This document shows positions 390 through 2,587 of a stretch of DNA of 64,000 nt, piece after piece. The stretch lies in the NCBI GenBank assembly GCA_902621855.1, contig CACNNQ010000001.1:124001-188000 (forward strand), written 5' to 3'. Every line of letters starts with the position of its first letter. The stretch's first letter is position 1. Under the pieces are notes generated by a model. It made no database searches. It was given only the letters and a program-made list of their open reading frames with translations, and was not told where the DNA came from. The stretch is from an uncultured Alphaproteobacteria bacterium (GTDB lineage Bacteria > Pseudomonadota > Alphaproteobacteria > HIMB59 > GCA-002718135). The position numbers were made by a program, and so were the translations under genes.

Positions 390-1142
390 ATGGCAGGGCA
401 CTCGAAATTTAAAAATATTATGCACCGGAAAGGTGCTCAAGATAAAAAAAGAGCAAAAGTTTTCTCAAGACTTGGAAGAGAAATTTCTGTTGCTGTCAAA
501 GTAGGAGGTGAAGATATTGAGAGTAATATTAGATTAAGATCTGCAATTACGTCGGCCAAGTCACTTAATATGCCAAAAGATAATATTGAGAGAGCAATAA
601 AAAAAGGTAAAGGAAATGACCCGGATACTAATTATGAAGAAGTAAGATATGAAGGTTATGGACCTGATGGAGTAGCTATAATAGTAGAAGCTCTTACAAA
701 TAACAAAAATCGTACCGCATCTGAAATCAGATCTACATTCAGTAAGTATGGAGGTAATCTTGGAGAGATCGGAAGTGTAAGTTTTGGTTTTGAAAGATTA
801 GGGAATATTTCCTTAAATAGAAATTTAGTAAAAGAAGAAGATTTATTTGATTTTCTTTTAGAAAATGAAACCGACGATTATGATGTAAATGATGACGAGT
901 ATATAATTTACTGTGATCAAAATAAACTTCATCAATTAAATGATAAAATCATTAAAACATATGGTCAAACTAATTATTCAAATCTTATATGGAAAAGTAA
1001 AAACTCTGTTAACATAGATAAAGAAACTGCAGATAAATTGTTTAAATTATTAGAAATATTAGAAGATAATGATGATGTTCAAGGCGTTTCATCTAACTTT
1101 GAAGTTGACGAAAACGTAATGTCATCCTTAACATCTCAATGA
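390..1142 (+). CDS. yebC: YebC/PmpR family (TACO1-like) translation or transcription regulator
   Basis: The 250-residue product starts MAGHSKFKNIMHRKG and continues with KVFSRLGREISVAVK, the hallmark start of the DUF28 / YebC family, at the usual family length. Members of this family have been linked to relief of ribosome stalling at proline-rich stretches (TACO1, YebC) and, in other hosts, to transcription control (PmpR). Which applies here cannot be told. The acidic C-terminal third (runs of D/E/N) is typical. The gene ends 10 nt before a small nuclease-like gene and is probably cotranscribed with it and tolQRAB. Confidence 0.95.
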   Translation: MAGHSKFKNIMHRKGAQDKKRAKVFSRLGREISVAVKVGGEDIESNIRLRSAITSAKSLNMPKDNIERAIKKGKGNDPDTNYEEVRYEGYGPDGVAIIVEALTNNKNRTASEIRSTFSKYGGNLGEIGSVSFGFERLGNISLNRNLVKEEDLFDFLLENETDDYDVNDDEYIIYCDQNKLHQLNDKIIKTYGQTNYSNLIWKSKNSVNIDKETADKLFKLLEILEDNDDVQGVSSNFEVDENVMSSLTSQ

Positions 1143-1152
1143 AAGGTAAAGA

Positions 1153-1446
1153 ATGCCAGATAAAGCTTGGAAAAAAAGAGAAAGAGACGTAGCAAACTAT
1201 TTCAATGGAAAAAGAACACCTTTGAGTGGCGGTAATGGGAAAGTCACTCGAGCAGATGTAATCCATGAAAATTTATTTATTGAATGTAAATTGAGAGCGA
1301 AACATACTGCGATATCATTATGGGATGATACAGCTAAATTAGCAAAAGAAGAAGGCAAAACACCTGTAATAGCTTTATGTGAAAAAAATAGACCTGGTTT
1401 TTGGGTTATGGTTCACAGTAGCGACTTAGAAAAAATAAAGAAGTAA
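1153..1446 (+). CDS. small PD-(D/E)XK nuclease-like protein (possible Holliday-junction resolvase analogue)
   Basis: A 97-residue protein without a name I can assign. It contains an N-terminal helix with Glu10 (KKRERDVANYF), then a basic/glycine segment (residues 19-33), Asp35 and Glu44-x-Lys46 in FIECK. This spacing of E, D and ExK is the active-site layout of PD-(D/E)XK nucleases and resembles archaeal Hjc resolvases and small phage endonucleases. It sits 10 nt after yebC and 3 nt before tolQ. In many proteobacteria ruvC-ruvA-ruvB occupies that position, and none of those genes is in this window. The nuclease fold is well supported by motif. A junction-resolving role is inference from fold and position. 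Confidence 0.6.
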   Translation: MPDKAWKKRERDVANYFNGKRTPLSGGNGKVTRADVIHENLFIECKLRAKHTAISLWDDTAKLAKEEGKTPVIALCEKNRPGFWVMVHSSDLEKIKK

Positions 1447-1449
1447 TTT

Positions 1450-2157
1450 ATGTCGGATATTAGTAATATAGATATTGTTAGCGAAGCCCCGGACTTTTCT
1501 ATGTTTGGTTTGTTCATGCAAGCAGATATCGTTGTTAAGTCAGTAATAATTGTTTTAATTCTGGCGTCACTATACTCATGGAATGTGATAGTTAGTAAAA
1601 TTTTAAGAATGAGACAATTAAAAAAATTGGAGAGAGAATTTGAAGATATATTTTGGTCTGGCAATTCTTTTGAGGATCTATACGAAACATTGAATTTCAA
1701 TAAATCTGATCCTAAATCAAAAATTTTTTGTGCTGCAATACTAGAGTGGAAAAAAAGTAAGTCTCAATTTGATCAAAGTTCAAATTTGAATTTACTTAAA
1801 GATAGAATGCAAAGATCAATGACTGTCATTTTTAATAAAGAAAGTGAAAATGTAGAGAAGAATTTAACTTTTTTAGCAACAGCTGGATCTACCGCTCCTT
1901 TTATTGGTTTGTTTGGAACAGTTTGGGGAATAATGAATAGTTTTAAATCAATTGCTATCGCTCAAAACACTAATTTAGCTGTTGTTGCTCCTGGAATAGC
2001 TGAAGCTTTGTTTGCTACTGCTCTAGGGTTATTTGTAGCAATTCCTGCAGTTGTTGCCTACAATAAAATCTCCAATGATATTTCTAAGTATTTCATTTCT
2101 TTAGAAACATTTATGGATGAATTCACCACAATTTTTTTTAGACAACTAGAGAAATAA
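1450..2157 (+). CDS. tolQ: Tol-Pal system proton channel subunit TolQ
   Basis: The 235-residue inner-membrane protein has three hydrophobic segments (about residues 26-48, 141-163 and 185-205), as in the MotA/TolQ/ExbB family. The conserved block NLTFLATAGSTAPFIGLFGTVWGIM covers the second segment, and APGIAEALFATALGLFVAIPA the third. TolQ forms the proton channel with TolR and energises TolA for outer-membrane constriction at division. It is the first of the contiguous genes tolQ-tolR-tolA-tolB-pal-cpoB and begins 3 nt after the nuclease-like gene. The ybgC thioesterase gene that often precedes tolQ is absent. Confidence 0.96.
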   Translation: MSDISNIDIVSEAPDFSMFGLFMQADIVVKSVIIVLILASLYSWNVIVSKILRMRQLKKLEREFEDIFWSGNSFEDLYETLNFNKSDPKSKIFCAAILEWKKSKSQFDQSSNLNLLKDRMQRSMTVIFNKESENVEKNLTFLATAGSTAPFIGLFGTVWGIMNSFKSIAIAQNTNLAVVAPGIAEALFATALGLFVAIPAVVAYNKISNDISKYFISLETFMDEFTTIFFRQLEK

Positions 2158-2161
2158 TAAA

Positions 2162-2587
2162 TTGATAATTCATTCAAACTCATCAAAAACTAGAAGAAGA
2201 AAATATACTCAGATGAGTGAGATTAATGTTACACCATTTGTTGATGTAATGCTAGTTTTGCTTATAGTATTTATGGTAACTGCACCCTTATTGACTGTAG
2301 GTATTCCTGTCGATTTGCCAAAAGTAAAAGCAACAGCACTAACAGATCAAAAAGATCCTATTGAAATTACAGTAAATTTAGAAGGTGAGGTTTACATAGG
2401 AGAGTCGCTAGTAGATGTCGAAAATCTAATACCGAGAATAAATGCAATTACAGAGCAAAATACTGAAGCCAGAATATATATAAGGGGTGATAGAGTTGTT
2501 GCATATGGAAGAGTAATGGAAATCATGTCCATAATTAATTCGGCTGGTTATGTAAAAGTTGCATTAATTACACAAAATGTAGAATAA
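2162..2587 (+). CDS. tolR: Tol-Pal system subunit TolR
   Basis: The 141-residue protein has one N-terminal membrane segment (about residues 25-45). It contains the ExbD/TolR signature MSEINVTPFVDVMLVLLIVF, in which Asp28 corresponds to the proton-pathway aspartate. A periplasmic domain follows, with the usual VYIRGD-like strand (IYIRGDRVVAYGRVM). The chosen start is TTG at 2162, four bases after tolQ. It gives the basic cytoplasmic tail (KTRRRKY) seen in other TolR proteins. Starting at the internal ATG of MSEIN would remove that tail. Confidence 0.95.
   Translation: MIIHSNSSKTRRRKYTQMSEINVTPFVDVMLVLLIVFMVTAPLLTVGIPVDLPKVKATALTDQKDPIEITVNLEGEVYIGESLVDVENLIPRINAITEQNTEARIYIRGDRVVAYGRVMEIMSIINSAGYVKVALITQNVE

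Follow-up and report, generated by a model that had tools for sequence, protein, structure and literature searches.

The stretch of DNA analysed here (the window, 64,000 nucleotides), which derives from a 1.48 Mb genome of the alphaproteobacterial order HIMB59, carries a tight run of forward-strand genes in which yebC (390..1142; Pfam PF01709, E 8e-49, and PF20772, E 3e-32) is followed by an open reading frame of 97 codons (1153..1446), tolQ (1450..2157; PF01618, E 4e-36) and tolR (2162..2587; PF02472, E 9e-30), with more tol-pal type genes downstream. The reading frame lies 10 bp downstream of yebC and 3 bp upstream of tolQ and is therefore probably cotranscribed with the tol genes; an AAGG at 1143..1146 on the same strand is a possible ribosome binding site. 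The open reading frame coordinates, together with the Pfam assignments of YebC, TolQ and TolR, confirm the claim of an earlier note on this DNA that a single 97-codon gene occupies the yebC-tolQ junction, an interval with no space for ruvC, ruvA, ruvB or ybgC.

The gene order which that note had taken as usual, yebC-ruvC-ruvA-ruvB-ybgC-tolQ, is indeed present in two related genomes (L227 and L228), where it continues into tolR, and linkage of yebC, ruvC, ybgC and tol is widespread (PMC3403352). Because these canonical relatives read yebC-ruvCAB-ybgC-tolQ, the window gene sits in the exact place of ruvCAB (and ybgC), with yebC and tolQ as the left and right borders of the slot. Its 97-residue product is an Hjc-like PD-(D/E)XK nuclease of the phrog_2002 family and is our candidate Holliday junction resolvase.

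Glu10, Asp35, Glu44 and Lys46, the residues on which the earlier note had based its nuclease call, are found at the claimed positions of the translated reading frame. They form the acidic and lysine catalytic set of the PD-(D/E)XK superfamily (E, D, E-x-K) and are invariant across 42 aligned homologues, mainly viral and with identities down to about 40%, as are W6, K7, A14, F17, R21, G26, H38, L56 and K69. Glu10 (motif I; codon at 1180..1182 on the forward strand, as for all codons given here) is located in helix 1 and is equivalent to Glu10 of the phage resolvase Hjc_15-6 (PMC8805305). The codons of R21-T-P-L-S-G26 (1213..1230) specify an R-x-PLSG loop common to the archaeal-type Hjc of Thermus phages, Asp35 (motif II; 1255..1257), for which metal binding is expected, aligns with the SD of the same Thermus phage enzymes, and Glu44-Cys45-Lys46 (motif III, E-x-K; 1282..1290) falls on a modelled strand comprising residues 41-47. 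Measured against published definitions of Hjc motifs I, II and III (PMC8805305), motif II (hDhhXp) and motif III (hhh(E/D/Q)hK) are both present, as ADVIHE and LFIECK, and motif I ((G/P)X4EX9-11G(F/Y)) is represented by its strict Glu (E10) with differing flanks (A5; G19-K20). Two viral homologues (L334 2992-3267 and L335 885-1160) have PVLG in place of PLSG and a shortened loop, with E, D and E-x-K intact, which appears to be a natural variant of the loop preceding Asp35.

An AlphaFold2 model based on 42 diverse sequences (pLDDT 87.4, pTM 0.81), superseding a poor first model from a narrow alignment (pLDDT 65), predicts helices at residues 2-16 and 53-66, strands at 41-47 and 70-76, and short strands near 20-21 and 36-37. 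Its best structure matches are of the PD-(D/E)XK type. Archaeal Hjc structures take the 11 top places in a Foldseek comparison with the PDB (probability 0.85-0.98; E 0.027-0.1, none individually significant), ahead of tRNA-splicing endonucleases. VIA-align ranked Pyrococcus furiosus Hjc first, with a Z of 7.7 over 87 residues, a range also reachable through common structural arrangement, and also listed the phage Hjc 7bgs (Hjc_15-6), while matches in BFVD below E 0.001 include a predicted viral protein labelled Holliday junction resolvase. The fold scores are suggestive when taken singly and consistent when taken together, and the model and structure comparison give the PD-(D/E)XK core that had been proposed from the motif, and the solved structures closest to this model are archaeal Hjc.

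Searches against PHROGs assigned the protein to phrog_2002, 'Holliday junction resolvase' (E 2.6e-10; residues 3-94 on profile positions 16-112 of 130), a name that is itself a transferred annotation. This family, which is known from phages and mainly through annotation, is also matched by the sister-family protein, the marine viral homologues and a gut-phage homologue. Pfam-A (to E 1) and NCBIfam hold no model for the protein, a Fip1 match at E 0.13 being attributable to chance, and sequence-profile searches of the PDB returned no credible relative; an 'A32' match at E 0.27 in that search was likewise dismissed as chance. The Pfam models of RuvC (PF02075), RusA (PF05866) and RecU (E up to 1) left it unmatched, the predicted fold being PD-(D/E)XK and not the RNase H fold, and a plasmid search gave no match. 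Since no Pfam Hjc match was obtained up to E 1, we file the protein as an Hjc-like member of phrog_2002 rather than as a member of the Pfam Hjc family.

The nuclease gene is part of the core genome of the order and is strongly constrained by purifying selection. Of the order's 41 genomes, 36 encode it; it is present as one copy in every one of the ten genomes with a completeness of 90% or more, and the five genomes without it are 56-82% complete. A GTDB-wide scan recovered 80 loci, nearly all from single-cell genomes of uncultured marine Alphaproteobacteria, and the yebC-nuclease gene-tolQ arrangement was found in 78/78 testable loci. The ratio pN/pS is 0.065 for the nuclease gene vs 0.166 for YebC and 0.119 for TolQ.

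The earlier note had called for a search for ruvC, ruvA and ruvB elsewhere in the genome, and that search, in this genome and its relatives, detected neither RuvC nor RuvA nor a genuine RuvB. None of the order's 41 genomes, one of which is single-contig and 99% complete, gave a match to RuvC (PF02075), RuvA or RusA (PF05866); the resolvase search of these genomes covered RuvC, RuvA, RuvB and RusA. In every genome of the order RuvB_N gave weak matches, the strongest reaching 31 bits. However, the RuvB C-terminal domain was absent from the three of these genomes examined and present in controls, and we therefore rejected the RuvB_N matches as true RuvB and attribute them to other AAA proteins. 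RecG is present in most of the 41 genomes as full-length matches of 570-669 bits. Across 385 Alphaproteobacteria, RuvC was detected in 353 genomes, the window gene in nine and both in none (Fisher p 6e-11, phylogeny not corrected). Four of the nine carriers come from f25, a family that is not part of the order and has genomes of 0.8-1.1 Mb and an identical yebC-gene-tolQ layout; RuvC and RuvB were also not found in it.

Other lineages have filled the same position with different phage-type genes. In family f99, the four genomes sampled, which are single-contig and 1.2-1.3 Mb in size, all encode a RuvC-like phrog_1770 protein of 164-166 aa (E 5e-36 in G137) directly after yebC (L238 5928-6425, L355 4196-4693, L356 3905-4399 and L357 1570-2064), followed by ybgC and/or tolQ. 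Family f119 likewise has a phrog_1770 protein directly after yebC (L239 5305-5805), 37% identical to that of f99. Canonical RuvC is absent from these four f99 genomes and the f119 genome, and RuvB_C from G137 and G157, the two genomes with phrog_1770 in the slot that were examined. The three RuvC-retaining genomes with phrog_1770 relatives carry them outside the yebC slot. A third kind of gene occupies the slot in family f50, where yebC is followed by a PDDEXK_15 nuclease of 168 aa (PF24608 'Phage putative PDDEXK endonuclease', E 2e-21; L230 5437-5943 and L236 1446-1952) and then by tilS-like and ftsH-like genes, with tolQ not adjoining, in genomes without RuvC and RuvB. We rejected a common family for the phrog_2002 gene and the f50 PDDEXK_15 gene and treat the two as distinct because hhalign gives them a probability of 0.5%. 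RuvB_C was absent in 4/4 examined genomes with these other phage-type resolvases in the slot.

Three phage-type families in one slot, with RuvB lost in each case, are difficult to account for other than by use of this position to express the resolvase of the cell. This refilling is the strongest argument for a resolvase function and suggests that a resolvase has been selected for at the yebC-tolQ position. We consider it likely that the yebC-tolQ junction is a resolvase slot in Alphaproteobacteria and that in streamlined lineages ruvCAB has been replaced in situ at least three times, by single genes of phrog_2002, phrog_1770 and PDDEXK_15, with loss of RuvAB each time. A separate observation concerns G173 (1.9 Mb, 99% complete), which has no RuvC, RuvB_C or recognised substitute after yebC (L231).

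Outside the order, the nearest relatives of the window protein (67-82% identity) are found in marine phages, and relatives are encoded on no fewer than 131 IMG/VR contigs. In 70/70 testable contigs, all marine and among L121-L198, the viral gene immediately precedes that of the terminase large subunit, lying within 800 bp of it and often overlapping it. In the one viral contig that was read throughout, the terminase small subunit comes first and a head-tail connector follows. The marine phage nuclease is probably a packaging-linked resolvase. A phage resolvase beside terminase makes sense because packaging requires debranched DNA, as illustrated by T4 endonuclease VII, a packaging-associated enzyme that frees stalled Y-DNA (PMC10893049). 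Querying viral sequences with the gut-phage homologue recovered no kin. In Bacteroides phage BS162P1 (L119 7323-8315), an HNH homing-type domain and the nuclease domain share one open reading frame, and a short stretch from the N-terminal part of the nuclease gene (R-x-N-x-VVV-x-x-PTSK) is repeated on both sides; compared with the standalone gut-phage homologue (L120 2905-3315), this looks like a homing endonuclease insertion with duplication.

In the nuclease tree, the cellular sequences form three clades (f1, f2 and f25), each single and placed separately among viral sequences. This placement suggests as many as three transfers, but the AU test does not reject a clade uniting all cellular sequences (p 0.13). 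A tree of YebC, TolQ and TolR places f1 with f2 and f25 apart; here too a single clade is not rejected (p 0.29). Transfer from virus to cell would be the simplest reading of the nesting among viral sequences.

Based on these results, we propose that the small virus-type Hjc-like PD-(D/E)XK endonuclease is the chromosomal resolvase of the order and has replaced RuvC in situ, with RuvAB lost, a reading that we hold to be highly likely. The earlier note had suggested either a non-homologous replacement for RuvC or a small endonuclease that came from a phage and became fixed in the tol operon. The first is supported by the position in the RuvC slot and the lack of RuvC, RuvA and genuine RuvB, the second by membership of a viral family in that same slot, and the two look like one and the same thing. 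By analogy with Hjc enzymes, the window protein would cleave four-way junctions. A homodimer would bind the junction; in each subunit Mg2+ would be bound by Asp35 and Glu44, Glu10 and Lys46 would make up the rest of the active site, and paired nicks in two opposite strands would yield two duplexes. Branch migration, normally the task of RuvAB, could be handed over to RecG.

Given its association with terminase in viruses, the enzyme may originally have been a broader debranching or packaging nuclease. It is conceivable that the window protein is a promiscuous branched-DNA nuclease (acting on flaps, forks and Y-junctions) kept for debranching stalled forks, with Holliday junctions handled elsewhere or by RecG and a topoisomerase. 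The position of the viral kin next to both terminase subunits and the debranching demands of packaging, as known from T4, are in keeping with such a role, and selectivity is often lower in viral than in bacterial resolvases (PMC3864405). However, the slot is that of RuvC and is filled elsewhere by other resolvase families, no RuvC or RusA is left for junction resolution, and the closest folds are Hjc, which together make this explanation unlikely.

A domesticated phage gene that acts against phages, by packaging interference or by cutting replicating phage DNA, and that came to lie in the tol operon by chance, would account for the close viral homologues with 67-82% identity. We judge this very improbable, given that the protein is unmatched by the PADLOC anti-phage defence models, and that the gene is a fixed, single-copy member of a core operon, is more tightly constrained by purifying selection than the genes on either side, and is mutually exclusive with RuvC, whereas defence genes are usually patchy in distribution. 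A selfish homing-type endonuclease inserted at the yebC-tolQ junction, for which the homologous domain fused to an HNH homing-type endonuclease in L119 might speak, is hardly credible, since the HNH part is missing from L120 and the marine homologues and the gene has one fixed site in 78/78 loci and one copy in 10/10 near-complete genomes, with none scattered.

To our knowledge, RuvABC is regarded as near-universal in bacteria, and the known exception, RecU, retains RuvAB. We found no description in the open literature of an in-place replacement of RuvABC by a chromosomal Hjc-like resolvase, which does not prove that none exists. If the virus-type resolvase reading is true, some of the most abundant ocean bacteria use virus-type resolvases and do so without RuvAB branch migration. 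A whole order lacks RuvABC and has one 97-residue virus-type enzyme in the vacated place, so that resolution and RuvAB branch migration appear to be separable in a free-living ocean lineage. That unrelated viral resolvases have come to fill one slot again and again amounts to a natural experiment on what is required of a resolvase, and would be a clear case of a core housekeeping enzyme supplied by viruses. The same reading provides a probable function for more than 100 unannotated viral genes adjoining terminase.

In sequence, the window protein has its nearest characterised relatives in the archaeal-type resolvases of Thermus phages. Junction cleavage has been demonstrated for Hjc_15-6 of Thermus phage Tth15-6 (motif E-SD-EVK), relatives of which occur in phages P74-26 and P23-45 (PMC8805305). 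Hhalign aligns the P74-26 resolvase with the window protein over R-x-PLSG...D...(I)E-x-K (36% identity, 33 columns, pairwise E 6e-4), and the Hjc_15-6 group shares both the motif order E...R-x-PLSG...D...E-x-K and a small PD-(D/E)XK core. However, the D-to-E spacing is 13 in Hjc_15-6 and 9 in the window protein (D35-E44), the P74-26 protein has 177 aa and belongs to PHROG 23036 as opposed to 97 aa and PHROG 2002, and the Thermus enzymes are encoded by phage genes whereas the window gene is chromosomal and fixed in the RuvC slot. Archaeal Hjc (P. furiosus 1gef and Archaeoglobus fulgidus 2wcw) provide the best fold matches, with four identical catalytic positions, and by analogy the window protein would also be expected to be an Mg2+-dependent dimeric resolvase. 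Unlike them, it is shorter, bacterial or viral in origin, without a sequence-profile match to Hjc, and only partly conforms to the motif I flanks. The phage proteins of phrog_2002 belong to the same family by profile, with about 40-82% identity to the window protein, and differ in setting, being encoded beside terminase (marine phages) or within other phage modules (gut Bacteroides phages) rather than in a cellular yebC-tol operon. RusA, a prophage-derived resolvase reported to work with RecG and able to act without RuvAB, is similar in being a phage-type resolvase, but it belongs to another family and is typically found in prophages and not as a core-operon gene. RecU of Firmicutes is a known non-orthologous replacement for RuvC and, like the window protein, a PD-(D/E)XK enzyme in its stead. 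However, RecU accompanies retained RuvAB and seldom adjoins ruv genes (PMC1193525, PMC3403352), whereas in the HIMB59 order RuvAB has also been lost and the new gene occupies the RuvC slot itself.
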